A DNA stretch of 47,049 nt from a virus: positions 1 to 47,049 of IMG/VR virus record IMGVR_UViG_3300040801_001723; one strand, written 5' to 3'. How positions within the stretch are numbered: the first letter of the stretch is position 1; the number at the start of each line of letters is the position of its first letter. Positions 4,424-45,879 of the stretch are shown one piece after another. The position numbers and the translations under genes were made by a program. The notes under the pieces are model-generated. The model saw only the letters and a list, made by a program, of their open reading frames with translations. It was not told the DNA's origin and did no database searches.

Positions 4424-6136
4424 TTAAGCTGTGATTATGAAGCGTACTTTTACTTTTTGTATCGCTCGCTGGATTTTTGCCTCAACCACAATTCCCGAGA
4501 AGATACCGGCGTTACGGTCGGCCTCTGGTAACTCGTCGAATCGTGGATACGTGATAGTGGTCGACCCTGGAACGATAGCGCCTTTACTTTCCGCCTCGTC
4601 CATTGCCGCGCTAATTTGACCGATTACGGTTAACATACCGTTATCGTTTAGCGGTACCGCTCTTTTGTTTAAAAGGAGGGTAAATACGTTACGCTGAATA
4701 AGGTATACAGTCCAGTCGCGGTTAATGATCGCCTCGATAGGCTCGCCGGTCGCTGTTCTGTTCCATAGCGTTAAGTTTGTACCGCGTTTCGATACATAAA
4801 CATTGTACGCATTACTTTCGAGATTAGAGCGCTCAGAAGTGCTATAACCGCGCGGTGCAATGTTGGTACCTTTAGGTGCTTTAAAGCTCCAGGTGTTCGC
4901 CGAGCCGTCCATAGCTGGACCGTACGGGAGGTTCTCGCCTGCCCATGCTGCGTCGAGGTCACTACCCACGATACCTTTATCGAAAATACCGTACGATCGC
5001 TCGTTCGTCGTACTTTTGAAGTACGCGCCGAGGCACGGCTGAGGATTGGCCCCGGCGTCGTACGGAGACGAGCGGGCGCTCGAGTTGTCGTCCGCATAGC
5101 CGTAGATACGCTCATTAGCGAGAGCCCAGTCTCCGGCCTGGCGGAATTTATTATCCTCTGGAGTCGATAGCGGTACCGGAGCGAAAGTGCCGGTCGCTGG
5201 CGATACTGCAGTGTTAGTAGGTACCGCCTGGTTAGTTCCGCCGGTAACCACATACGTAAGGCTAACGCGGTCCGCTGTAGCCAGAGACGTATTAACGCTC
5301 AATCCCACAGAGTCCACAGTCACGACCGAACCTGTTAAAGCCGACTCGATAGCTGTTTCTATGTCGCCGTAAGTTGTAGCGTTGTCGGTGTTGAAAGGTA
5401 CGGTAACCGTAGGGAGTACGGTGTCCGCAGCACTTCCGGAACCGAAAGCGATATCGATAGCTATAGAGTTACCCGCCTCGAAATCTATATCGAAAACGGT
5501 AGTCTCAGAAGCTCCGCCGGTAACCTCCATTGTAACGCCTACAATGTTTTTACCCGTTGCGTTTATCTCGAGCGTACCCGCTACCGAGTCCGTAGTAACT
5601 GTTGAACCAGGGAGCGCCGCTTCAATGGCGGCTTTGAAAGCTGTGTACGTTGTAGCCGAGTCGGTGTCGAAAGGTACCGGCGCAGTAGTTACGGTAGTGA
5701 GACCGCCAGTCTCAATCGTAAAAGTGTAGCTCGCGTCCGGAGAAACACCAGGGGCGATAGTAAAAATACCGTCTCGCTCGAGGGTGTAGTGTAAGTCGTA
5801 AAATTCGGGCTGCTCGTCTGCGATAGCGTTAAGCGTCTCGGTGATAGACGTGTCGCCAGCGTCCTCTCTGCCGATAAGCACTTTTTCCACTCTGCGCGGA
5901 CTCTGCGCGACAAGTGCGCGGAATTTTACGCGTGCGATATGATCCACAGGGAAGCCGTCGTCCCCCATTTCCGAATCTGTCGCGTAGTATTTCGCTCGTT
6001 GATCTGCTGCCCAGCCCGGTATATCCGCCTCGTCAAATAACGCAACTATCGCCGCGATACTGAAAGACGGCTCCGCTAGGGCCGTGGTTTGTTGGTCTAC
6101 CTGGACCTCCACTATTTCGTCGTATTCCTGTGCCAT
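4424..6136 (-). CDS. Contractile tail sheath protein (DUF3383) with duplicated inserted domain
   Basis: 570 aa. N-terminal and C-terminal parts match the DUF3383 sheath family: an N-terminal FSIAAIVALFDEADIPGW region and a C-terminal domain around YLIQRNVFTLLLNKRAVPLND ending in KVRFIITA. The sheath contracts at infection and drives the tube through the envelope. Between about residues 140 and 302 lie two tandem copies of a Thr/Ala/Val-rich beta module. They carry the signatures PFDTDSATT and PFNTDNATT, each followed by an AIE-AL helix and ending in VTGG. The same module occurs in the head cement protein at 9785-10498. The insert makes the protein longer than a plain DUF3383 sheath and would project from the tail surface (inference). 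AGGAGG precedes the ATG. Confidence 0.88.
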   Translation of the reverse strand: MAQEYDEIVEVQVDQQTTALAEPSFSIAAIVALFDEADIPGWAADQRAKYYATDSEMGDDGFPVDHIARVKFRALVAQSPRRVEKVLIGREDAGDTSITETLNAIADEQPEFYDLHYTLERDGIFTIAPGVSPDASYTFTIETGGLTTVTTAPVPFDTDSATTYTAFKAAIEAALPGSTVTTDSVAGTLEINATGKNIVGVTMEVTGGASETTVFDIDFEAGNSIAIDIAFGSGSAADTVLPTVTVPFNTDNATTYGDIETAIESALTGSVVTVDSVGLSVNTSLATADRVSLTYVVTGGTNQAVPTNTAVSPATGTFAPVPLSTPEDNKFRQAGDWALANERIYGYADDNSSARSSPYDAGANPQPCLGAYFKSTTNERSYGIFDKGIVGSDLDAAWAGENLPYGPAMDGSANTWSFKAPKGTNIAPRGYSTSERSNLESNAYNVYVSKRGTNLTLWNRTATGEPIEAIINRDWTVYLIQRNVFTLLLNKRAVPLNDNGMLTVIGQISAAMDEAESKGAIVPGSTTITYPRFDELPEADRNAGIFSGIVVEAKIQRAIQKVKVRFIITA

Positions 6137-6144
6137 GAGGCCTC

Positions 6145-6675
6145 CTAAATTTCGTTAAGGGTGTACTTAACGTCGGTTATTTTGTTCGCTGGTTGTGTGA
6201 GCCTGTAAGAGCCGGCGAAGATAAACTCCGCCATACAGTCCGGCCCCCAGCGCTCGTTAACTTCGTTATACATAGGTATGGTTTGATTTACCCGTCTGCA
6301 CACTATACCGGCCGTTCTCATAAGGGCCACAGTACTATCGAGTTCAACGCCGGCGCGTAGCTTCTGGAGAAGTTCGCCTCGCCCGCCTACCTGGTGTATA
6401 TTAAATATCGCTTCGTAATCTTCTTTAGCCTGGGAGCTACCGCCCACGCTCGAGGGGCTGTCCTCAACCCACTCGGATACGTCGGCGCGTCCCTGGCTGC
6501 TGGAGGTTGGTATCTCTTCGATTACGATAACGGTGTCCGTGGGTCTGCCCAGGTCGTCGCGCCCTACTGGTGCGCCTACGTTCTGGTACCCCCCGCGTAT
6601 GGTAACGCCTGGTAATAAATTTGCTACCACGTTGTACACTTCGACATACATCTGGCTAACGTCAATATCTGGCAT
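6145..6675 (-). CDS. Neck terminator / tail terminator-like protein
   Basis: 176 aa, directly upstream of the sheath gene. It contains MYVEVYNVVANLLPGVTIRGG, an acidic Ser-rich stretch, and a C-terminal MAEFIFAGSYRLTQPANKI strand. This fits the neck or tail terminator proteins of contractile tails, which cap the tube-sheath end and dock it to the head. The start overlaps the previous stop by one base (TAATG), preceded by GGGGAGA. Assignment is by synteny and general pattern. Confidence 0.6.
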   Translation of the reverse strand: MPDIDVSQMYVEVYNVVANLLPGVTIRGGYQNVGAPVGRDDLGRPTDTVIVIEEIPTSSSQGRADVSEWVEDSPSSVGGSSQAKEDYEAIFNIHQVGGRGELLQKLRAGVELDSTVALMRTAGIVCRRVNQTIPMYNEVNERWGPDCMAEFIFAGSYRLTQPANKITDVKYTLNEI

Positions 6676-7016
6676 TATATCTCCCCTAGGTACTGCGCTA
6701 CGTAGCGAAAGTGGTTAATTATTCCCTGGTTACGGGTTAACTCCCGTATGAGTTCCCAGCGGCCCCCATCGAAAAAGATAATATCGCCTTTCTCTGTGGA
6801 GCCGTTTTTTGTAACCTGGAGCTGGTCGTCGCAAAAAATTTGTATGAGCCCTTTATCCTTACGCAAAATAGGGTAACCCTCCGTTTCTTTTCCGGAGAAA
6901 GGCTGTATACTGCCCTGCGTAGTTATAGGGACCGTGCCGTCTATCTGGGCTATACCAGCGGTGTACGATATTTGCAGGCGCTCGCCTGTGATCGGTTTAG
7001 GAAATAAAGAACCCAT
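6675..7016 (-). CDS. Head closure / neck protein, small
   Basis: 113-aa beta-rich protein (LFPKPITGERLQISYTAGIAQ; GDIIFFDGGRWELIRE) between the gp10/gpG-like protein and the neck terminator. Genes of this size and position usually encode the head-closure or stopper subunit at the connector. It shares one-base start/stop overlaps with both neighbours, so translation is coupled. No definite family was recognised. Confidence 0.5.
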   Translation of the reverse strand: MGSLFPKPITGERLQISYTAGIAQIDGTVPITTQGSIQPFSGKETEGYPILRKDKGLIQIFCDDQLQVTKNGSTEKGDIIFFDGGRWELIRELTRNQGIINHFRYVAQYLGEI

Positions 7017-8027: not shown

Positions 8028-8657
8028 TTACGCTCCCGGTTTCCAGTTGACTATCTTCGAGATACGCTCAGTAACCACAGACATAACAGAAGCGTCGAGC
8101 CCTGGAAGAGTTTTCCAACGTTTGAGCGCTTTAATGTCGTTACTGTTACGTGCGATTATGAGCTGTTCTTTAGGGTCGAACTCGTTAAACTGCTTCGCGG
8201 TTACATTGCCTTTAGAGTCTACTTTCCGGCCATGCTCTGTGAAGCCGTTTTTGAGACACTCTTTTCGCATGGCTTCCCATACTGAAAGTATCACCTCGTT
8301 ATACCCTAAATGCGTGAACATAGAGCGGCTCTCTGCGCTTCTGTTGAGTTCTTTAGGGTTACCCATAGGCATACCGTATACAATGCCTTTATACTTGCTC
8401 TTAACGATTATCATAGGCTCGCTAGGGCCCTCGTCGTCCTCTTCGTCGAGTACGTCGTCGATAATGTTGTCGTCTCCTGTGATTTCGTCGTCTTCGATAT
8501 CTGTAATTTCGTCGGACGTATCCTCCTGGACCGCGTCTCCGTCTTTTATCTTCGCGAGCAGCTCTTTAAGCTGGTCGACTGTTAATCCCTCTATCTCAGC
8601 CGAGGAATTAATCGCGAGTATCTCGCTTTGTAAATCTGATTTCGTAGGCTTTGCCAT
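8028..8657 (-). CDS. Uncharacterised virion-module protein with acidic middle
   Basis: 209 aa. The first 40 residues resemble a short LEM/HeH or Rho-N-like helix-extension-helix (EIEGLTVDQLKELLAKI). This is followed by an extremely acidic segment (about residues 45-80, mostly Asp/Glu) and a mixed C-terminal domain with MFTHLGYNEVILSVWEAM. Comparable Rho-N-like proteins often sit just after the capsid gene in tailed phages, but their role is not established. It is the first gene after the capsid terminator, so it is likely made in lower amounts than the capsid. Confidence 0.6.
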   Translation of the reverse strand: MAKPTKSDLQSEILAINSSAEIEGLTVDQLKELLAKIKDGDAVQEDTSDEITDIEDDEITGDDNIIDDVLDEEDDEGPSEPMIIVKSKYKGIVYGMPMGNPKELNRSAESRSMFTHLGYNEVILSVWEAMRKECLKNGFTEHGRKVDSKGNVTAKQFNEFDPKEQLIIARNSNDIKALKRWKTLPGLDASVMSVVTERISKIVNWKPGA

Positions 8658-9784: not shown

Positions 9785-10498
9785 TTATGGGTTGTTAATA
9801 ACAACAAGCGCGAGGCCCGCTGCGTCGAGGTTAGACTCAAAAAGCATACCCGCAATAGCTGTGCCCGCGTTCGCGAACTCGCCGTTAGCGTTGTACGATA
9901 CAGCGTCGCCAGCTTGACACGCAGTCGCACAGTATACCCAGATACGGCCCTCTGTAAGGATATTAACCATATCCCCAGATTTGTAAGGTACTGGGTCTTT
10001 TTGAGTGAGTTTAGAAATACCGCGGAAAACCTGGTTACCGCTGTTTTGAGCTGTAACTGTTACAGAGGGTTGAGAAGCTCCGCCAGTTACTACAGACTCC
10101 ACAGTGATAGCGGCGCCGTCGTCCGAGCTTACTGTGATCTGGTTAGCTGCTTCGCTCGCACAGTCGATACCGTCGATACCATCTACCGCAGCAACGAGAG
10201 CCGCCAATGTGGTAGCCTGGTCGGTGTCGAAAGTTGTAGACACTTCGGTGGTAACTGCCGCGCCGAGTGGTCCTGGGCGTGTAACTGTGACGCTGATAAC
10301 GTTACCTGTGATAAAATCCACAGAGTAGTCGACGAGCGCTTCGTCATTGTTAAGGAGTGCGATAGACTCGTCCTCTCCTTTGAGTTGAAATAGTGGGTAC
10401 CCGAGTGGCAAGTCTTCCGCAGCTATGCGAGACATAACGCGGCTTTCTGTGCCATACTGGAGACCCGCTACGGCTTTTTCAATATTTCCGTATTGCAT
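9785..10498 (-). CDS. Head cement/decoration protein with inserted beta module
   Basis: 237 aa. N-terminal (to about residue 65) and C-terminal (from about residue 145; YKSGDMVNILTEGRIWVYC, GDAVSYNANGEFANAG, ending ALVVINNP) halves resemble structural cement proteins that stabilise capsids. Between them (about 70-141) is a module with TTFDTDQATTLAALVAAVDG and a closing VVTGGASQPSV, clearly similar to the two modules inserted in the tail sheath. The gene lies between the protease/scaffold gene and the capsid gene, the usual slot for decoration proteins. The module would be displayed on the head surface (inference). Confidence 0.75.
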   Translation of the reverse strand: MQYGNIEKAVAGLQYGTESRVMSRIAAEDLPLGYPLFQLKGEDESIALLNNDEALVDYSVDFITGNVISVTVTRPGPLGAAVTTEVSTTFDTDQATTLAALVAAVDGIDGIDCASEAANQITVSSDDGAAITVESVVTGGASQPSVTVTAQNSGNQVFRGISKLTQKDPVPYKSGDMVNILTEGRIWVYCATACQAGDAVSYNANGEFANAGTAIAGMLFESNLDAAGLALVVINNP

Positions 10499-11067: not shown

Positions 11068-11757
11068 GAGCACTACTCCTCCGGTTTGTTGGTTTGGTTC
11101 TGTTGTTTCATCTGCGAACGATAGCGAGGTGTCGATATCGTCCATAAGCATAAGGTCGCACTCTTCCGCGTTAATCTCCTGGTCGGAACCATCCGCCAGA
11201 ACAAACGACGCCGCCTTTCCAGCGCGAGCACGTTTTACGATAGCCAAATGGTTACCGCGTATATTTACCTGGCGAGCGTCGTACTCCTGGTTCTGCCAGG
11301 TGCCGCTCTCCATTAATAGGCCGGCTTTGTACCCGACCGATAGTTCTTTCATCTCTCCCGACTCGATAACCTTCTGCGCTTTCGCAGTGGTCACCGTGAT
11401 AGGAGCGTATAGGTAGTACGCGTCGTTAATTATGCGCTCGCCTGTACTGCCGACCTGTTTACCCTGGAGGGTGGCCGGGTCGAAATTCTTTTTAGGGTGC
11501 CGTATAACGAGAGGCAGCATACCGAGGGTGGCCATACTCTCAGAGTCGAAAACATCGTCCGGGTGTCGCAGCACTCGAAGCGTTTTACCGTCTTTCATGC
11601 GGTAATTCTGCACACCTACGGCCGCGATAATCGCCTGGCCCTGTAGGTACCCGTTACCGTCACGTTTAAAGGGTATAATGTTCTCGTTTGTTCCCTGGGA
11701 CGATACCGCGAACGATACCACGTCCATAAAAACCATATCTTTAACGTCTGTATACAT
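10501..11757 (-). CDS. Prohead protease fused to scaffold (DUF2213-like)
   Basis: 418 aa. Residues about 20-200 carry the DUF2213 prohead protease pattern: GNGYLQGQAIIAAVG, LPLVIRHPKKNF (conserved His near residue 85) and GEMKELSVGYKAG (Ser near residue 139 in the E-L-S-V-G-Y context of the family). From about residue 231 the protein is helical, coiled-coil and Lys/Glu/Ala-rich, typical of scaffolding, ending HDGLHDAYANVGEE. The protease matures the prohead and removes the scaffold. An in-frame internal start with a strong ribosome binding site lies at 11067. Confidence 0.82.
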   Translation of the reverse strand: MYTDVKDMVFMDVVSFAVSSQGTNENIIPFKRDGNGYLQGQAIIAAVGVQNYRMKDGKTLRVLRHPDDVFDSESMATLGMLPLVIRHPKKNFDPATLQGKQVGSTGERIINDAYYLYAPITVTTAKAQKVIESGEMKELSVGYKAGLLMESGTWQNQEYDARQVNIRGNHLAIVKRARAGKAASFVLADGSDQEINAEECDLMLMDDIDTSLSFADETTEPNQQTGGVVLMKYQLKNGQVVEADQAFIDSYTALLDQNVTLENDKTALEASVSDYKGKLAAAETQLQDSADAQPSHEDVIAAANSLIAVRKTATDAGVDFKDEDDEQAIKVAVIKAVMPKADFKDDSESDVSSFFSASLEVLESRKDKTVSNRKKMTGVQLQDGADVSTDKNKKVTAASLEQSFHDGLHDAYANVGEE

Positions 11758-12821
11758 TAATCTTCGCCCGCAAATTCAATTGATAGTGAACCAGATAACG
11801 AGAGTATATCGTCTCCGGCGTTTTTCGCACCAATAGAGATTGTGTGCGGTCCTGGCGCGAGTAATGGCGTAACCCCCTCCATAGTAAACGACACTGTATT
11901 TCCGACGCCGTCTCCAGAGCGGCTCGTATCTTTTTGCAGAGGGAAGGCCACACCGTCGACCAGGAAAGCGAAATCGAAATCCGCGTTCGAGAATGCGGTC
12001 ATACTGCCGACAAATAATAGCCGGTACCGTAAAGGTATAGACACCGATATGTCTTTGCTGTTCCCTATCGATATGTTATCGGTAGAGCTATAAATGTGAT
12101 CTGCGTCGTCTACGTTCCACAGCGGTAAAGACTGGTAACTCGACGAGGTAGTAAATGCCTGTGTCAACGCGCCGCGTATAAACGCGAAAACACGTACCGC
12201 TGCCGTTATGCCTGCCAGTGAGGAGGTTTTTAACTCTTTCGCGGTCTTGTCGTATATTAGCGCTATGTCCGTGGATATAGGCTCGTACAGCGTAGGCGTA
12301 GCGCTTCGTGCGTTCGAGTCGTTTGATCTTAACGACTCCGTTACTACGGCTCCAGGTCGTATACTTACGATAATTTTAGAGTTATTTGTTAAAGAAGGGC
12401 TGGGCGAAGAGTCTAAAAGTGTAATAGCGTACTCTTTGTACCCTGACTGGTTTGTGACTGTGTCTATTCCCCAAAACTGCCACGCGCTAGAGTCGTCCTG
12501 TTGCTGTAGATACAGCCCGTCTCCGACTTGTACCTGTTCTAGGAAGTTAGCGAGGTCCGAGCCGTCTACGTCCGTGGTAGATAAGTATAAAACGGTCGAC
12601 GTCGGCTGGTCTGCCTGGTTAAGTTGTATACGTCCTGGTGGCGGTGGCGGTGTTGTCGCAGAGGCGAAACGCCAGACGCCGGAGCCTGGACTCCGTGAGC
12701 TCTGCATAGCTTTCGAGCCGTCGGCCAATTGGGTAGGTACGTAGCCGGTCTCGCCGTTCGGTACGGTCGTATAGTTGACTGCTCCGTCCTGGTTCTGTAG
12801 TAGTTCTCCTGGCTGTGCCAT
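11757..12821 (-). CDS. Fibre-like structural protein in the head module
   Basis: 354 aa, not assigned to a named family. A Gly/Gln-rich N-terminus (MAQPGELLQNQDGAVNYTT) resembles phage fibre/neck-whisker N-termini. A PPPPPG hinge lies near residue 60, followed by two beta-rich regions. The C-terminal domain (about 210-354; LPLWNVDDADHIYSST, DFDFAFLVDGVAF, GPHTISIGAKNAG) looks like a jelly-roll or C1q-like head. Placement among capsid genes suggests a head fibre or decoration protein rather than a tail fibre (inference). An AAGGAG site precedes the ATG; the stop overlaps the protease start. Confidence 0.6.
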   Translation of the reverse strand: MAQPGELLQNQDGAVNYTTVPNGETGYVPTQLADGSKAMQSSRSPGSGVWRFASATTPPPPPGRIQLNQADQPTSTVLYLSTTDVDGSDLANFLEQVQVGDGLYLQQQDDSSAWQFWGIDTVTNQSGYKEYAITLLDSSPSPSLTNNSKIIVSIRPGAVVTESLRSNDSNARSATPTLYEPISTDIALIYDKTAKELKTSSLAGITAAVRVFAFIRGALTQAFTTSSSYQSLPLWNVDDADHIYSSTDNISIGNSKDISVSIPLRYRLLFVGSMTAFSNADFDFAFLVDGVAFPLQKDTSRSGDGVGNTVSFTMEGVTPLLAPGPHTISIGAKNAGDDILSLSGSLSIEFAGED

Positions 12822-13647: not shown

Positions 13648-13820
13648 TAAAAGCGCTCCTCGTCTGTAAGCTCGTCCCATTTCTTGCCGTTTTCGTAGTG
13701 CCTGTACTCGGGGTGCGGTTCCGCTCCGGACATTATCCGGGCGGGTATGTTTCCGTCGAAAAACGGGCAGCGTGCCTCGCCCTCGTAGTGTTTACATGTA
13801 TTGCACTGTGCGCCTGTCAC
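13647..13820 (-). CDS. Small Cys-containing protein (57 aa)
   Basis: Starts with GTG at 13820, with GGAGGT six bases upstream inside the end of the MuF gene. Begins MTGAQCNTCKHYEGEARCPFF, a C-x2-C-x8-C arrangement that may bind a metal, and ends DELTDEERF. Small proteins with such CxxCxHY starts are common next to minor head genes in phages, function unknown. It overlaps the previous stop and the next start. Confidence 0.7.
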   Translation of the reverse strand: MTGAQCNTCKHYEGEARCPFFDGNIPARIMSGAEPHPEYRHYENGKKWDELTDEERF

Positions 13821-15751
13821 TGGTCGACCTCCTCTTTAATCCATTGTACTATTTCTTTCGGTAATTTGCCACGCTCTGAGGGCTGTACGTATGCGGACCA
13901 CGCCTCCGCCCAGGCTTCCTCGTCGTTTGTGCGTGCATATTCGCCTTTATCGAAATTTTCCCGCGCTTTCTGCCACTCCCGTACGCCCTCCCTGGTGTCT
14001 GGGAAATCGTCTATATTCGGACCGCTCCAGTACTTACGGTTTGTACGTTCCCAGGACGCGCGTAACTCTTTATTACGTTCGCTCCCTACGCCGTGCTTAT
14101 TGTAGTACACGAAGTGCCCTACCTCGTGGTGCGCCGTGGCGAATTTATCCGACGACATTATGTACTCGTGTCCCCTGCGTTTGACGCTGGTTTCGTTTGC
14201 TCTCCTCCAGGTATCGGCCTGCGCCTCGAGAGTCTTTCCGTACTCTTTGCCGGTATTCCAGAAAATACCCTGGTTTTGGAGCTGCCCTGTAAAAGCGTTA
14301 TTGCTGCGTATGTATATCCCGTTCGCTCTGCCGCCTCCGGTGTTGAAAGACTTTTTAAGCTGTGTAAAGTTACCTATACCTGACACTCTCTCGAATTTTA
14401 TGTCCTTCGGTACCCGGTCCAGCGCTGTGTACATACCGTTCGCGAACTCTACAGGGGCAGTCCCAAAACTTACGGCCGCGGCTCCTGTTAGCTCTTTTAT
14501 CGCTGCCGAGGCCTCTTTGTTGTTTTTGAAATTCGCCTCTTTCGGCGGTTTGTCTCTCGGGTCCTCTTTTTTCTTTTCTGTTTTTGGGGCGGCGGCCTTT
14601 CGCGTACTGGCCCGCGCTGTTACCGCACTTAACCCCCTTCTGGTTCCTCTCCCCGGTGCTATGCCTGGGTTAGCTGCCTCCTCGGCTGCTATAAGTTCGT
14701 CGGCTTCTGCCACTATGTCGTCGAACGCTGGCAGAGCTGTACACCTACATTGGATATCCGACCCAGGTATTTTCCCCTGCATATCGGAGGGCCTTTTCCT
14801 AAATTCTGTCTCACCTCGAGGGGTATATACGGACCGGTCGTTCCACTTGTTTATGGAGCCCGCCATTCTGCGGTGTGATTCCCGGACTCTCTCGTCCAGG
14901 GCAGTAAGCCAGGAATAATTATCGACGCCGGCGTCCACCATGCGGCCCTCTGTGAGGGTGCCGTTTAGCTTTCCGATCTGGTCACGGGATATGAGCTCGG
15001 CCCTGTACTCCGTCATATTGGAGTCCATTTTCCGGAGCTCCGCCATAATGTCCGTGTATCTGGCTCCCTGCTGCACTCCCTCGGCCACTATCGTATTAGT
15101 CTTTTTGATATACTCGTCTGTGAGTGATTTAATCAGAGTGAAATTTAAGTCGGTCCATGAGCGTAAAGTCTGCTGCACCCAGCCGGTATCCACGTCGAAA
15201 GCCGTACCTATGGCTAACGTCGTGATTCTAGACCACTGCTCCGCGTTTATGCGGTTTACGGCCCCTCCATACCCGAAGATATCGGCCCGTACCTCTTCCT
15301 CATTCTCTACGAAAATGGTCTCCTGTTGCTCGCGGAGCCTATCGAGGAGCTCGTTAAATTCGTCCTCGTACTCGTCCATTACCATAAAGTCGTCGTCGAC
15401 TGCGTCGATAAACTCCTGGTGCAGCTCCTCCGATCCCTTGTCGTCTGGTGTGGAGTGCGCCCACTCACAGAGCGCCCCGTCCATAAAGTCGAGACCGTCG
15501 AAAATGTCCGTTTCCTCGAGCCAGCGCTGTAGATTCTCCCGTATAACTGGCATAGCTATGCGGGAGAAACTCTCCATAATCCGCTTAATGTATACAGAGT
15601 ATTCCCTTTCTACCCGTATAGGGTATAACCAGGTATTAGGCGTCCGTAGCTTTTTATTTCGCTCCCTGGCCGCCGGGCTCATCTCTGCGCGCTTCTGCTT
15701 AACAAACTGCTTAAAAAGCGCTCGGGTCTCTCTGCGGGTTATACTCGCCAT
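13817..15751 (-). CDS. MuF-type minor head protein fused to a zincin-like metallopeptidase domain
   Basis: 644 aa. Residues about 200-340 match the SPP1 gp7/Mu gpF head morphogenesis domain: AELISRDQIGKLNGTLTEGR, then WLTALDERVRESHRRMAG and the terminal Cys motif SDIQCRCTALP. A Lys/Ala/Glu-rich linker (about 380-405) leads to a C-terminal domain with ATAHHEVGHFVYY. Its HEVGH (about 541-546) is a canonical zincin HExxH motif, and the downstream NDEEAWAEAW (about 607-616) could give the third Glu ligand. MuF proteins go into the prohead near the portal and some carry exchangeable C-terminal toxin or enzyme domains. This one may process head proteins or be injected into the host (inference). Start ATG overlaps the portal stop. 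Confidence 0.85.
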   Translation of the reverse strand: MASITRRETRALFKQFVKQKRAEMSPAARERNKKLRTPNTWLYPIRVEREYSVYIKRIMESFSRIAMPVIRENLQRWLEETDIFDGLDFMDGALCEWAHSTPDDKGSEELHQEFIDAVDDDFMVMDEYEDEFNELLDRLREQQETIFVENEEEVRADIFGYGGAVNRINAEQWSRITTLAIGTAFDVDTGWVQQTLRSWTDLNFTLIKSLTDEYIKKTNTIVAEGVQQGARYTDIMAELRKMDSNMTEYRAELISRDQIGKLNGTLTEGRMVDAGVDNYSWLTALDERVRESHRRMAGSINKWNDRSVYTPRGETEFRKRPSDMQGKIPGSDIQCRCTALPAFDDIVAEADELIAAEEAANPGIAPGRGTRRGLSAVTARASTRKAAAPKTEKKKEDPRDKPPKEANFKNNKEASAAIKELTGAAAVSFGTAPVEFANGMYTALDRVPKDIKFERVSGIGNFTQLKKSFNTGGGRANGIYIRSNNAFTGQLQNQGIFWNTGKEYGKTLEAQADTWRRANETSVKRRGHEYIMSSDKFATAHHEVGHFVYYNKHGVGSERNKELRASWERTNRKYWSGPNIDDFPDTREGVREWQKARENFDKGEYARTNDEEAWAEAWSAYVQPSERGKLPKEIVQWIKEEVDQ

Positions 15752-39813: not shown

Positions 39814-40950
39814 TTATAGAAAAGTTACTGTCGCCAGCCCCCCTGGGTTGTTCATGTTGTTGTACATCACGTCGACGAGGTCCTCGGAGAGGTTCTCGTC
39901 TATCATTCTGAACTCAGACAAACGACCGACGAGTCCGGACTCGTTACGGTCTGAGTCGTTGCCGATTACGACCTGGTTACCTGTTGCCTGTATCACTCCT
40001 ACGTTAGACGCCGCAGGGTGTAAAACCCCGTCCTGTATAATCCACGCGTCGCCGGAGTTGTTTATCTGTACCGCGTAATGGTGCCAGTTACCGTCCCATA
40101 CGCTCTGTGTCAAGAACACCACAGAAGAGTTACTCCCCTGACCTTGTATCTGTAGCTGGAACGGCTCATTAGGTACACACGTAACCTCGAAACCGGCCGA
40201 GTCTGAGAAACCGTTTTTATTCGATACTATTCTCTCGAAACCGGTTGCCGCATTGCTCGCGGGTTTTCTGAGCCAAAACATAACGCACAGGTCGCCGCTA
40301 AAATCATTCGCCAGACCTGGCACCTCGAGTACACTTTGAGTGGCGCTCGTGAATAGTTGGGCGTGCCCAGATTTGAAAGGTATGTCGGTGGTACTCTCGT
40401 ACGGCCCGTGGTTCGTGTAATCTGGTTTTATTATAGTATTGTTTTCCGAGCTCGAGTCGTTCATAGTGGTTGTTCCCTGCGTATGGCAGGCGAAATCCCA
40501 CTTTATACCGCCGGGTAGTTGGTTCCACACCTGGTCGCTACCGTACTGCGCATCTCTGGCCGGCTGAGTGTTGGAAGAGTTACCCCATACCAGGTAAATA
40601 TCTACGGAGCCGCCCACCGGCAGCTCTCCGACCTCACACCACAATTGTAAACGGCGGTTCCCTGCCGTCGCCGACTGTACAAAATTCTCTATTTCGAGAC
40701 CTACCCGCGTACTTTCGTCTCTCGGGTTGAGTAAGAGCCTTAAATCTCCGCCGTCACTTCTGCATGGGGTAGCGCTGGCGGGGTCCGTGAGCGCGTTAAA
40801 AAGTGCACTATCGAAGTCGTCATTTATCATATACGGAACGTCGAAAACGGTAGACGATAACCCTGTGGTGTCTATTGTTATTTTGACGCCGTACCTCGAC
40901 CCGAAAGCAAAGGTACGGTCATTACGTCTAACTGTTACTATTCTAGCCAC
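39814..40950 (-). CDS. DUF2341/LamG-like lectin protein (receptor-binding accessory)
   Basis: 378 aa, GTG start. N-terminal DUF2341 pattern (VPYMINDDFDSALFNALTDP; VGGSVDIYLVWGN at about 110) is followed by a concanavalin/laminin-G-like domain (about 180-370): SGHAQLFTSATQSVLEVPG, VMFWLRKPA, WHHYAVQINNSGDAWIIQDG and GRLSEFRMIDENLSED. Such two-part proteins bind carbohydrates. It follows the sialidase-like fibre protein by ten bases and probably is a second adhesion protein of the tail. Confidence 0.8.
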   Translation of the reverse strand: MARIVTVRRNDRTFAFGSRYGVKITIDTTGLSSTVFDVPYMINDDFDSALFNALTDPASATPCRSDGGDLRLLLNPRDESTRVGLEIENFVQSATAGNRRLQLWCEVGELPVGGSVDIYLVWGNSSNTQPARDAQYGSDQVWNQLPGGIKWDFACHTQGTTTMNDSSSENNTIIKPDYTNHGPYESTTDIPFKSGHAQLFTSATQSVLEVPGLANDFSGDLCVMFWLRKPASNAATGFERIVSNKNGFSDSAGFEVTCVPNEPFQLQIQGQGSNSSVVFLTQSVWDGNWHHYAVQINNSGDAWIIQDGVLHPAASNVGVIQATGNQVVIGNDSDRNESGLVGRLSEFRMIDENLSEDLVDVMYNNMNNPGGLATVTFL

Positions 40951-40959
40951 TCTCGCCCC

Positions 40960-43707
40960 CTATACGAAATCGATCTCGATTCCGACGAGCTGGAGCTCTC
41001 CGGAGAGGTTACCACCGACGGTATTGTCCCGGTCTATACGGACCTCGATATCGTCCTGGTCAATTTGTGAATAGGTAGCCACGTCCGCAACGTCGGACCA
41101 CGGTGTCGTCCAGTACGACGCCCCGGAGGCGTTTACGTTTACCTCTGCGTCTACAGGAAAAAACGGAGTTTGCAAGGTTACACCGGACGGTAGCTCCCTC
41201 ACTCCAATACTTATGCGTACGTTCCCGGTGTTGTTGTTCCCGGCTAAAACGAAAGACGCTCGAGCTCGGTACTTACCGGACCACCCTTTCGGAGGCTGTA
41301 ACGTGTAGTGCCAATAGTCGGTACCGGTAGAAAAGAATTGTAAGCCGTCATACCATCCGGTTATACCATTGGCTATCCCTACGGTCACGAATTGCCCCAC
41401 GTTTGAGGGCTGCGGCACGAATGCGCCGGCGGATATAAATACGTTAGGCTCGACCATTGCACGGGAGAAACCCTGCTGGTCTTTTTCCATTAAGCGGCCG
41501 GTCCACTTCTCGCGGTATATAGCTCCGTTCTCCGCTTCGCTATCCTCGAGGTACCCTGCTATGTCCTGGAGTAACTTTATCTGGTTACGTATAACCTCGA
41601 GCTCTGGGTCTCCCCAGTTAACAACGTCCCCGGAGCCTGCGTCCTCTTTCGCGACCGTCACCTCCATAGAGCCGTTGTACATTCTGGTGCGTACAGGTAC
41701 GTCGGTACTGTTCGGACCTGTTCCGATATCGCGCTGGAGTGCGAGCTCCTCTACGATAAAACCTTTACCGTCTGCGGAGTTGTTACGGATAAGATATATA
41801 GTTTTATACTTGTCGCTGTACGTCATATCATTAGTTAACGTCGCCGAATCCGCCGCGATTTCCCAGGTAACCCCGTTATCCACTGAGCGTATTACTCGAG
41901 TCTGGTACGCCGTACCACCTCGTATGGTGGCGTACACGACACCGTCTGGGGTTCCGAGAATTTTTAGAACCGAGGAGGCCGTGTGCGGTCCTTCCTCGTA
42001 CACCATAGACCAGGTAACGCCTTTATCGGTCGAGCGCATAATACGGGCGTACTCGTTCGCGCCGACCTCTCCGAGTCCTACGTATATGGTCGCACCATCA
42101 TTGAAAGCGCAGTCGCTCCACTGACCCCCGATAGTATTACCGTTTATGTACTCTATGAAAGTCCAGGTACCCCCGATAGTCGGGGCCGTATGGAATTTAG
42201 GGTACTGGTCTGTAGCTGTCCCCTTACCAGCAAACATATATGTCCCGTCGGGGTGTTTCATAAATACGTTGTGTATCTCTCCCACTGTAATAGAGCCAGA
42301 GGTCGCCGGGGACGCTTCTACGCCGTTACTCGATAGTGTCCAGGACAGACCGCCGTCGTCTGAATAGAGGGGGTATGCCAGGCCTGTAGAGCTGTAACGG
42401 GTAACCACCACACGCCCGTCGTCGTGCTGAGTTATACCGCCGGCAGCTTGAGCCCCTGCGCCCGTGTGTACTTTTGTCCAGGTCGAGCCGTCGTCCGTGC
42501 TTCTCCATATAGCGAAACCCTGGTTAAGTGAGGTCGAACTGTCGACCATAAGTATAGCGCTGTCGTCCGCGAGAGTTAACGCACTGTTCGGGAAGTCGTC
42601 CGACCAGGTCGATATATCTATCTGTGTCGTAGTGTCGTCGGCCGGGTTGTGGCGCGCTATATGTCCGGTCGCTGCCGTACCTTCACTACCGATACCGACT
42701 ATAAGACCGTTAGACTCGGTTACCGCCCACGATATAGAGTTCGATGAGGGGAGCGCGTTAAAATCTTCGTCTATCTGAGAACCGAGAATACTTTTAGTAC
42801 GGAAGCCTGAGCCCCATACGTCGTACAGTATACCTTTACCCGTCTGTAACGTCGCATAACGTCCGATACGGTTCTGGAACAGAGCGGCGTCTGTGTCGAG
42901 CCAGTCTGCGTCCAGGCCGTAGCCTATCTCCGAGTTAATCGCGAGAGGTCCGCCGATTTCCGACTTATCGTCGAATACGAGAAAAAAGTTAGTCGGCTCC
43001 AGCGCCACGTTATCCGAGATTTCCCAGACCGCCGCGAATATACCGTCGTTTTCGTTCATGGATATAGAGCTCGCGTTTTTCGTGGCGTCTATACGTACAG
43101 GGCCGGTCGGGGTCGTGTACTGGTTTTGCATAAGTTTTGTGGAGGTCGTTGTATTGCCTCCAGTAAGAAAACCGCCTTTACCGATCTGGAACCAGTCCGA
43201 GGTCGTTAACATGTTGGTCTGAAAATCCGGCTCGTTAGACACTACTCCGATATTGCCTGTAAAAGGCGCGTTCGTTCCGTCTTTGAAAACCACGTTCGAG
43301 AGGTCGAGCCCCTGGTAAAAATGCCATAGGCTGTTACTGTGGAGGATTGCGGTAAACTCTTCGCCGTTCGCCAGTACCGGTCCGACGAGGGTACCCGTAG
43401 TCGTTACGGTTCCGGTCACGTCGTAGTTAACTACTGTTATGGTACGGCCGTTCATTAGGTAGTTATTGAAAATCACCGTCATATTAGCGCCGAGGGTCTT
43501 ACAGATTATAACCACGTCACCACCGTAGAAATTAAGGTCTACTATAAAATTGTCGGTCGTGATCGTTATATATTTTGTGTTTATGTTGTAGAGAGGCACT
43601 TTCCGGTTACTCCCTGCACCGAACGGGAACCCGGCTATAGGTAGTACGGCGGTCTCGGCCGGTCTGTTATCTTGCGGGAGTCCGCTTATTGGTTTTCCTT
43701 CTGCCAT
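40960..43707 (-). CDS. Tail fibre/spike protein with sialidase-like (BNR) propeller
   Basis: 915 aa, the largest gene. N-terminal attachment and beta region (about 1-330), then four Asp-box repeats of the sialidase propeller: STDDGSTW (about 404), SDDGGLSW (about 450), STDKGVTW (about 560) and SVDNGVTW (about 610). C-terminal jelly-roll-like domain (about 790-915; YWHYTLQPPKGWSGKYRARA). Likely the main receptor-binding protein, binding or cutting glycans; catalytic sialidase residues were not traced. It lies between the tail-I-like and lectin-like genes. Confidence 0.82.
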   Translation of the reverse strand: MAEGKPISGLPQDNRPAETAVLPIAGFPFGAGSNRKVPLYNINTKYITITTDNFIVDLNFYGGDVVIICKTLGANMTVIFNNYLMNGRTITVVNYDVTGTVTTTGTLVGPVLANGEEFTAILHSNSLWHFYQGLDLSNVVFKDGTNAPFTGNIGVVSNEPDFQTNMLTTSDWFQIGKGGFLTGGNTTTSTKLMQNQYTTPTGPVRIDATKNASSISMNENDGIFAAVWEISDNVALEPTNFFLVFDDKSEIGGPLAINSEIGYGLDADWLDTDAALFQNRIGRYATLQTGKGILYDVWGSGFRTKSILGSQIDEDFNALPSSNSISWAVTESNGLIVGIGSEGTAATGHIARHNPADDTTTQIDISTWSDDFPNSALTLADDSAILMVDSSTSLNQGFAIWRSTDDGSTWTKVHTGAGAQAAGGITQHDDGRVVVTRYSSTGLAYPLYSDDGGLSWTLSSNGVEASPATSGSITVGEIHNVFMKHPDGTYMFAGKGTATDQYPKFHTAPTIGGTWTFIEYINGNTIGGQWSDCAFNDGATIYVGLGEVGANEYARIMRSTDKGVTWSMVYEEGPHTASSVLKILGTPDGVVYATIRGGTAYQTRVIRSVDNGVTWEIAADSATLTNDMTYSDKYKTIYLIRNNSADGKGFIVEELALQRDIGTGPNSTDVPVRTRMYNGSMEVTVAKEDAGSGDVVNWGDPELEVIRNQIKLLQDIAGYLEDSEAENGAIYREKWTGRLMEKDQQGFSRAMVEPNVFISAGAFVPQPSNVGQFVTVGIANGITGWYDGLQFFSTGTDYWHYTLQPPKGWSGKYRARASFVLAGNNNTGNVRISIGVRELPSGVTLQTPFFPVDAEVNVNASGASYWTTPWSDVADVATYSQIDQDDIEVRIDRDNTVGGNLSGELQLVGIEIDFV

Positions 43708-43717
43708 AATATATCCT

Positions 43718-44335
43718 TTAGTATACGAGTATCGGCGTACCCTCTGTTATGGACGAGTTCGCGCCCTCTAATAAAATGTATTGGTCTGTCTCCCCCTCGA
43801 GGAGCAGCCACCAGCCCTGGTAAGCTCCGACGCCGGCGACTGAGATAGCCTCGAGCTCTGCCTGTGTCGGGTCGCCTATACCGGCTGGGTCGCGCAGTAC
43901 CACTGCGTACGCTGCAGGCTCTGCCGTAGAGCCCAGGCCGTCCCATAACGGGTGTAATTTGATATCGCCGAGCTTTGCCCCTACGGTACCGTAACCCATT
44001 ACTTTAAGCATAAATATAATCTGATTAGTCGTTCCGGAGAGCTTTAAACCCCCAAAAGATATTATACGGGCGCGGAAAGTGTTATCCGACTCCCCCTCCC
44101 GTAACAGACCGAATTTATACCCTATAATATCGAGCTGCACACCTTCGGCTTTCAATATCTGAAAACCTTCTGAAATCTCTTTAAATGCCGTAAGTATCTC
44201 GTCTCTCGAGGCCCCGATACCGTCCATTAACTCCTGGAGCTTTTCCGCACGACCAAAACGCGCCAGGAGTTTAGGCGCGTACCAGTCCAGTAGGCTAAAA
44301 CCTTCCTGGAGTGCGGGTAACGTTCCGGCGGCCAT
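43718..44335 (-). CDS. Tail protein I-like (DUF2612-like) baseplate wedge protein
   Basis: 205 aa. N-terminal helical DWYAPKLLARFGRAEKLQEL; middle LDIIGYKFGLLREGESDNTF and RARIISFGGLKLSGTTNQII, typical of tail-I/DUF2612 proteins that cap the wedge and hold fibres; C-terminal GVGAYQGWWLLLEGETDQYI. Start overlaps the baseplate J stop by one base. It is the usual last baseplate gene before the fibre gene. Confidence 0.75.
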   Translation of the reverse strand: MAAGTLPALQEGFSLLDWYAPKLLARFGRAEKLQELMDGIGASRDEILTAFKEISEGFQILKAEGVQLDIIGYKFGLLREGESDNTFRARIISFGGLKLSGTTNQIIFMLKVMGYGTVGAKLGDIKLHPLWDGLGSTAEPAAYAVVLRDPAGIGDPTQAELEAISVAGVGAYQGWWLLLEGETDQYILLEGANSSITEGTPILVY

Positions 44336-45879
44336 TATGGTATATCCGCCACAGTTATGTCGGTCTCGTCCAGAGTCGCGACGCTTGTACTGTCTATAGG
44401 TATAGTATCAGAGCTGAAAGGGTCTCCGCTTCCCTTAATCCTGGCCTCGATTTGTACCTCGCCGACACCTTGTACCGCCAGGTAAATAGGTGGTATTAGC
44501 CGGCTGGTGATAACATCTTTATCGAGTACCCAGTTATCGCGGGCATAAGCGACGAGCGCGTCTTTTATTAGCTGGTCCCCGTTTGTAGGGTAGGGGTTGA
44601 ACTCTTCATATTTATCCCGGTACACGTTGACCTCAATAGCCACACCCTGTACTATGCTGTAATACACGTTTTGCTTTTCTCCGTCGTCGTCTTCTACTTC
44701 GATAGGACCTTCGGTACCGAAAATCTCGATACCAGCCGGAGCAGCTTTAAAAATGGCCTCTGCGAGTGCCTGCTGTACCTCTGTCGGCGGTCCGGATAAA
44801 ACACCCACACCGTCGACGTAGGTCTGAAAGCTCTTAGGCGCCTGACCGTTAAACGGTGCGCCGGCTGCGAAAGCCGTCATAGTCCGGTTTGATCGTACTA
44901 CGCAGGCGCTAACAGCTTGTACGTCGTTTAGTACCACTCTCCGTATAGCGTCCTCTGTCGCCAGGCCTGTACCTGTGATACTGAGCTGGAGACGTTTACG
45001 GTATGCTGGGTCAAGCTCCACACCGGTACCGGTACCGAGCGTTTTACTGTCGGTATTGTACACGCTTTTGAAGCCGGTTACACCAGTCGCTATCTCTGAG
45101 ATAAAACCGATACCCACCGCGACGAACCCCTCGAGGAGGGCTGTAACGTCCACAGGGGAGCCGAACTGGTCGACATTCATGTTTTGTGTAGCGCCTATAG
45201 CGAAAGTCGGTATGGGCTGACTCTCTGGTATGGTCTGGTCGTACCACACGCGGAGACGCGGCTCTCCGTCGTCGTTAAAAATTTTCTCTGCATTAAAAAG
45301 TTGAGGTACTGCAGCGTTAACCGCCGCCGCGAGCGCGTCGATAGGTTGTTCCTCGTTCGGAAAATCCCCGGTAATGGAGTAGACCTGGGCGTCCATAGTT
45401 ATAAGGTACTGAGCGAGCCCGGACTGTAAATCCACCTCGTACCACACCTCGCGAGCCGCGGCGGCGTCGATAGTGACGTCGGCGTCGGTCTCGAACGTAA
45501 CGCGGTCGGCGTCTAGCGTGGTACTGTTACGTACTCGAGTACCCGTGGGAACGATCGTTCCCTGGTCACCAAAACACACGACGTTACGTACTTGTGCTTT
45601 CGTGGCGTCCTCACGTAATACATTTATGAGCGCGCCGATATTGTTGTCCAGGGAAACGCCTACCGCGTTGCGTACGTCGTTCGCTGTCCAGGTGTCCTGG
45701 GCGACGTCCCACACTTCCGCGTCGGTAGATGCCAGATAGTCCAGGAGCGCGCCTGTAGCCTGCTCCGGGTCCAGGTTCACGTCGTCGCCGAAAACACTTT
45801 TAAAAATAGTGGTGTAGTATTCGACGAGGTCCTGGTACGTCCGTTTGTTAAAACCGGTTTCGGTTACATACTTTCCCAT
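44335..45879 (-). CDS. Baseplate J-like protein
   Basis: 514 aa. N-terminal NKRTYQDLVEYYTTIFKSVF and LDYLASTDAEVWD; VGVSLDNNIGALINVLREDA, GTIVPTGTRVRN and DPAYRKRLQLSITGTGLATE are characteristic of Baseplate_J. C-terminal QGVGEVQIEARIKG. It forms the wedge ring of the baseplate together with gp25-like and tail-I-like proteins. Slightly longer than P2 gpJ because of beta-rich inserts in the middle. Confidence 0.88.
   Translation of the reverse strand: MGKYVTETGFNKRTYQDLVEYYTTIFKSVFGDDVNLDPEQATGALLDYLASTDAEVWDVAQDTWTANDVRNAVGVSLDNNIGALINVLREDATKAQVRNVVCFGDQGTIVPTGTRVRNSTTLDADRVTFETDADVTIDAAAAREVWYEVDLQSGLAQYLITMDAQVYSITGDFPNEEQPIDALAAAVNAAVPQLFNAEKIFNDDGEPRLRVWYDQTIPESQPIPTFAIGATQNMNVDQFGSPVDVTALLEGFVAVGIGFISEIATGVTGFKSVYNTDSKTLGTGTGVELDPAYRKRLQLSITGTGLATEDAIRRVVLNDVQAVSACVVRSNRTMTAFAAGAPFNGQAPKSFQTYVDGVGVLSGPPTEVQQALAEAIFKAAPAGIEIFGTEGPIEVEDDDGEKQNVYYSIVQGVAIEVNVYRDKYEEFNPYPTNGDQLIKDALVAYARDNWVLDKDVITSRLIPPIYLAVQGVGEVQIEARIKGSGDPFSSDTIPIDSTSVATLDETDITVADIP

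Follow-up and report, generated by a model that had tools for sequence, protein, structure and literature searches.

One virus record of 47049 bases, analysed whole and called the window here, raises the question of why two proteins with unrelated cores, the tail sheath and the structural cement protein that decorates the capsid, should share a segment of sequence, and of how that segment came to lie in both. An earlier note on this DNA had proposed that a single module occurs twice in the sheath and once in the cement protein. The signatures, shuffling statistics, profile searches and closest relative described below all bear this out, and the three segments are very probably copies of one promiscuous, self-nesting insertion domain of tailed-phage virion proteins, spread by recombination.

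Virion genes of the window

The window has no tRNA, and its structural genes lie mainly on the minus strand, to which all window coordinates given here refer. The tail sheath gene (4424..6136) encodes 570 amino acids, matches the tail sheath family phrog_205 across its entire length (E=1.5e-46) and carries two tandem copies of the module; its DUF3383 score of 32.5 bits falls just under the Pfam cut-off of 34.9. The cement gene (9785..10498; 237 amino acids, one module) is assigned by Pfam Phage_cement (PF22758, the family of E217 gp24 and Pam3 gp6) with E=2.4e-15 and 57.4 bits, compared to a cut-off of 27. AlphaFold2 models built from alignments of the window and its relatives had mean pLDDT values of 93 for the cement and 85 for the sheath protein. 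The sheath model superimposes on the Sf14 sheath with Z 34.2 and an rmsd of 2.4 over 320 residues, and matches the PhiTE sheath with Z 33.0. The cement model matches the Pam3 cement chain 8hdt_G with Z 16.4, its core resembling the capsid decoration proteins of Pam3, XM1 and E217.

Three further structural genes are module-free. The product of 6675..7016 (113 amino acids), a head-completion or collar-type protein, is an orthologue of the phrog_939 group with an empty site (group core HMM, 5e-12). A probable tail terminator is encoded at 6145..6675 (Phage_tail_terminator_9, E=8.8e-4, below the cut-off) and a baseplate wedge protein of the J type at 44335..45879 (Baseplate_J, E=1.2e-8; wedge core HMM, 7e-72). 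A module copy suspected by eye in this last protein was not confirmed, the module HMM giving E 0.035.

Three copies of one module

The seed module HMM, of which all three copies are themselves part, places the first sheath copy (S1) at residues 128-214 (5495..5755; HMM match to residue 215), with a degenerate N-terminal edge, the second (S2) at residues 215-307 (5216..5494), and the cement copy at residues 58-149 (10052..10327). The module is about 90 residues long, begins with D-x-D-F-V-x-x-N-x-I and finishes past V-T-G-G-x-x-Q. The earlier note had located it correctly, at about residues 140-209 and 240-302 of the sheath and 70-141 of the cement protein, but had underestimated its extent, the true start lying some 12-25 residues earlier. 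All three signatures are present, and they read VPFDTDSATT...AAIEAAL...VTGGAS in S1, VPFNTDNATT...TAIESAL...VTGGTN in S2 and TTFDTDQATT...VAAVDG...VTGGAS in the cement copy.

Smith-Waterman comparison against 2000 shuffles gave z 14.4 for S1 with S2, and z 5.9 for each of S1 and S2 with the cement copy; in none of the 2000 shuffles was an observed score reached, ruling out composition as the source of the likeness. With the iterated module HMM, no other part of the window scored E<0.01, and when all 3306 ORFs were shuffled it had zero matches.

Predicted structure

In the AlphaFold2 models the order of elements is the same for all three copies, namely three strands, a helix and four strands. 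In S1 the strands are at 123-127, 136-143 and 148-150, the helix at 160-174 and the later strands at 178-183, 188-193, 198-206 and 209-215; in S2 the corresponding elements are 209-215, 224-232 and 244-247, helix 252-266, and 270-275, 280-285, 290-298 and 306-311; in the cement copy they are 53-58, 67-75 and 81-89, helix 94-106, and 111-117, 120-125, 132-138 and 146-151. S1 and S2 share the intervening strand. The sheath copies were likened to the cement copy through element order and sequence, and by this predicted measure the segments do not appear to be different folds.

Fold comparison of the cement insert (residues 52-151) brought out inserts in the sheaths of other phages: PhiTE (Z 10.2, rmsd 2.2), A-1(L) (Z 10.1, rmsd 2.0; A-1(L) residues 94-185), Bas63 (Z 9.1) and Sf14 (Z 8.7). 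Outside the sheaths, the insert resembled a chain of the Bas63 baseplate (Z 9.9) and, with Z 10.9, the nozzle of P-SCSP1u. The sheath insertion domain of XM1 does not appear among the listed matches. The Z values for flagellin, FliD and GbpA domains, 5.5-8.6, include Pseudomonas aeruginosa FliC at 8.6 and FliD chains at 5.5-7.5, figures below the range of a safe match. Among Pfam families, Flagellin_IN (PF07196) is the commonest match to the modules, a weak one found in 4 of 49 (best E 0.0034) and not reported for a smaller set of seven. No canonical Ig family is among the Pfam matches of those seven modules, an absence from a match list that does not amount to exclusion of an Ig fold. No carbohydrate-binding or lectin family of Pfam matched the modules at E values up to 10.

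Relatives and host proteins

Searches of IMG/VR and INPHARED with the cement or sheath protein as query returned nothing, or distant sheath cores only. The closest relative, L002 (here, as below, L numbers denote loci of related, uncultured environmental phages), was found through its capsid protein, which is 73% identical. It keeps all three module copies, its cement copy matching its own second sheath copy by BLASTP with E=6e-7 (search space 1e7). A profile built from seven copies retrieved 28 IMG/VR loci; a second, from which the window and L002 copies were left out, retrieved 75, partly overlapping the first set, and still recovered the L002 copy (L095, E 8e-7). Among 84,980 prokaryote genomes, the second profile matched two loci only, both metagenome-assembled. 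The clear sequence matches among INPHARED isolates are confined to Rhizobium phage RHEph12 and its relatives (E 2e-5), whose genomes are 192-194 kb long and whose matching gene is annotated only as tail sheath protein. A BFVD search gave mainly unnamed cement-like proteins and, more weakly, the tail sheath of Pseudoalteromonas phage J2-1, and PDB sequences gave chance matches only. A made-up consensus of a more generic NG-type insert had no match in phages; a separate HMM for that insert merged with the module family upon iteration.

Iterated HMM search over the collected loci yielded about 137 modules, carried by some 110 proteins, and 49 modules from very diverse phages have a mean column identity of 50%. 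Carriers were classed by the core that remains once the module is removed. They comprise 42 sheaths, 46 cement proteins, 10 baseplate wedge subunits, 7 phrog_939 head proteins and 3 tail terminators, together with one fibre-like protein without a family match, one portal with half a module and one fragment. In contig scans that read all of the DNA, there was no carrier with a match to a non-virion family. The earlier note's placing of the module in two virion surfaces therefore holds for sheath and cement and is too narrow, since wedge, terminator, head-completion and fibre-like proteins carry it too. All four of the sheath, cement, wedge and phrog_939 families carry it on a single contig, L039, which has several sheath copies. 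In L092:1-2112, at a contig end, half a module lies ahead of an SU10-type portal, a fusion that may be an assembly chimera.

In alignments of the cores, insertion sites of the module number about six for the sheath, at least three for the wedge, and two each for the cement protein, the phrog_939 protein and the terminator. Each of these five virion protein families has both occupied and empty members: the module is missing from 51 of 58 phrog_939 proteins and 40 of 43 terminators, from 16 of 26 wedges, and from 21 of 63 sheaths and 7 of 53 cement proteins, counts that do not estimate natural frequencies since the relatives were gathered mostly by module search. The cleanest pair is the empty L090 and occupied L049 phrog_939 proteins, with cores 56% identical and a gap at the module. 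Module-free sheaths (L005, L027, L085 and L102; 353-367 residues) and cement proteins (L060, L072 and L042; 150-167 residues) show that, as had been proposed, the module is inserted into unrelated cores and is the core of neither, and that such sheaths do not all possess it as a core domain. Where both genes were sampled, again among loci gathered mostly by module search, 21 contigs have the module in both, 14 in the cement protein only, 5 in the sheath only and 2 in neither.

Self-nesting

Nine proteins, seven sheaths and two wedges, contain one module inside another. The inner copy interrupts the outer after profile position ~24 in the seven sheaths and ~52 in the two wedges. When the inner copy was excised in silico, a contiguous, full-length match to the outer module (52-86 bits) was restored in all nine. 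The L039 wedge and the L022 sheath hint at a third level, in which a generic insert would enclose a module; we do not claim it, because iteration merges the profiles of the generic insert and the module.

Movement between genes

A tree of 116 modules shows 27 changes of the host-protein label, compared to a minimum of 5 and a mean of 55 when labels are shuffled. Since the changes are far fewer than with shuffled labels, much of the history is vertical, and the tree as a whole records vertical signal plus repeated moves between host proteins. Modules in different proteins of the same genome have a mean likeness of 0.383, as against 0.363 under permuted genome labels, an excess matched by 7 of 500 permutations.

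Exchange is visible at the DNA level in three relatives. In L031 a run of 79 identical nucleotides, which begins at the edge of the module, is common to the cement and sheath genes; its sister L025 lacks this identity, and it is a recent gene conversion between a head and a tail gene. In L027 the cement and terminator genes are ~80% identical in nucleotides over the module, unlike outside it, and L080 has a similar within-genome pair with ~75% identity over the module. Codon identity at shared amino acids lies above the codon-usage expectation in all three (z 5.3 in L031, 4.7 in L080 and 3.6 in L027); for comparison, just 0.26% of between-genome pairs exceed z 3. The window's own copies, with 63% nucleotide identity and z 0.5, give no sign of recent exchange in this codon test, and their duplication is therefore old. 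The pair S1 and S2, common to the window and L002, appears to have arisen by tandem duplication.

A separate kind of repeat was seen in L067, where identical stretches of 26 to 111 bases, in up to three copies, occur near 5655-5811, 8381-8537 and 14895-15061, apparently between structural genes.

The proposed mechanism of spread starts from a compact domain of strand, hairpin, helix and strands, some 90 residues long, that would be entered and left through its first and last strands and would therefore fit surface loops of many virion proteins, leaving the host fold undisturbed. Solved homologues and the secondary structure suggest that the ends of the module are adjacent and that it sits on the virion surface. 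It has probably spread through in-frame recombination, from one virion gene to another and from phage to phage, arrivals sometimes landing inside an existing copy, and gene conversion can overwrite copies within one genome. One may, tentatively, go further and picture the module as a mobile element at the protein level, which copies itself among head, neck, tail and baseplate genes and into itself, conversion then carrying one surface change across the whole virion.

Possible functions

Such a domain is presumably kept because it adds contacts between subunits, a docking point for fibres or some weak adhesiveness of the surface. That it stabilises the particle, making contacts between neighbouring subunits or holding fibres against the virion, is a reading we regard as possible though short of probable. 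The A-1(L) sheath has the matching domain described above, and the A-1(L) wedge contains an insertion domain of ~100 residues that in one subunit plugs the hub and in the other holds the long tail fibre (PMC10966104). The wedge of XM1 similarly has an inserted domain, of 92 residues, which covers gp12, another baseplate protein (PMC10457771). These wedge inserts are, however, precedents by description, and the sporadic presence of the module among relatives marks it as dispensable. For domains added to the sheath, either tail stabilisation or adhesion has been proposed in a study of sheath evolution (PMC9230969).

The idea of the earlier note that head and tail share a weak affinity for cell-surface or mucus glycans, as suggested for the Ig-like domains of phages, we consider rather doubtful here. 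It would suit both the restriction of family-matched carriers to virion proteins and the fold likeness to outward-facing domains of flagellin, FliD and GbpA; yet Z values near 8 to flagellar and adhesin-type domains are in the range of common arrangements, no carbohydrate-binding family matched the module, and low-copy terminator and wedge proteins carry it too. Trp and Tyr, the usual sugar-stacking residues, are absent from its invariant columns. The solved precedents appear equally compatible with docking or stabilisation and with adhesion, and on balance we lean slightly towards stabilisation or docking over glycan binding.

Patchy presence, in every combination of occupied and empty sheath and cement genes, self-nesting, and an exchange that begins at the module edge are what would be expected of a mostly neutral passenger, duplicated by recombination at its conserved ends and tolerated by surface loops to little benefit. 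Such a passenger should hardly be confined to virion proteins in scans that read all of the DNA, and the keeping of its motif across very diverse phages suggests selection, so that we hold this unlikely. Improbable too is separate acquisition of each host protein's copy from a large outside pool, for although the copies of the window and most relatives are no closer in codons than chance and the fold is widespread among solved phage and flagellar proteins, the recent within-genome exchanges contradict it in three genomes, and the S1/S2 tandem pair and the same-genome excess of likeness also stand against it.

Comparison with known systems

Two things were known beforehand: that optional, promiscuous domains, the Ig-like ones, occur in phage virion proteins (cited in PMC9230969), and that the XM1 tail sheath has an insertion domain, which its authors report to be similar to FliD D3 and call unique (PMC10457771). 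We liken the XM1 domain to the module by description, each being an inserted domain found in the sheath protein of a phage. The XM1 domain is described in the sheath only, whereas the module spans head, neck, wedge, terminator and sheath proteins and is found in tandem, nested and exchanged between genes. The inserts of PhiTE, A-1(L), Bas63 and Sf14 (PDB 9cba, 8kee, 9mt4 and 9c3b) match the cement insert in fold (with Z 8.7-10.2 and rmsd 2.0-2.5 over 84-94 residues) at only 12-18% sequence identity; from residue numbers we infer that they occupy an earlier sheath site than S1 and S2.

Like the module, Ig-like domains are optional surface domains found across many virion proteins and exchanged among phages. 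The module differs in its central helix of 13-15 residues, its flagellin- and FliD-like match, its position within loops, its self-nesting and its head-tail gene conversion, and from the predicted models its fold is apparently different as well. The flagellin hook IN motif and the D2-D3 domains of FliD and flagellin give weak Pfam and fold matches; the module is distinguished from these flagellar domains by its residence in phage virion proteins and its own FDADFV...FxTDxATT...VTGG signature.

As far as the searched papers show, the spread across head, neck, tail and baseplate, the self-nesting and the recent head-tail exchange at the DNA level are new. They add to the promiscuous virion domains a second, apparently non-Ig, type, whose movement between head and tail genes has direct genomic evidence behind it, and thereby make testable the long-standing guess that optional surface domains serve adhesion, stability or nothing. 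They also suggest that the sheath insert once called unique to XM1 belongs to a large group. For annotation there is a warning, in that sheath, cement, wedge and terminator genes can match one another through the shared insert alone.

Other genes of the window

Amid the head genes, 11757-12821 encodes a protein of 354 residues with zero Pfam matches, and 13817-15751 a minor head protein of the SPP1 gp7 type (TIGR01641) whose C-terminal part has a zinc-metallopeptidase-like HHEVGH motif. At 40960-43707 lies the gene for a 915-residue tail protein that contains roughly four repeats of the Asp-box-like form D-x-G-x-T/S-W, and its neighbour at 39814-40950 encodes 378 residues that look LamG- or lectin-like by eye. 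For the binding of glycans, these two are likely to be stronger candidates than the module.
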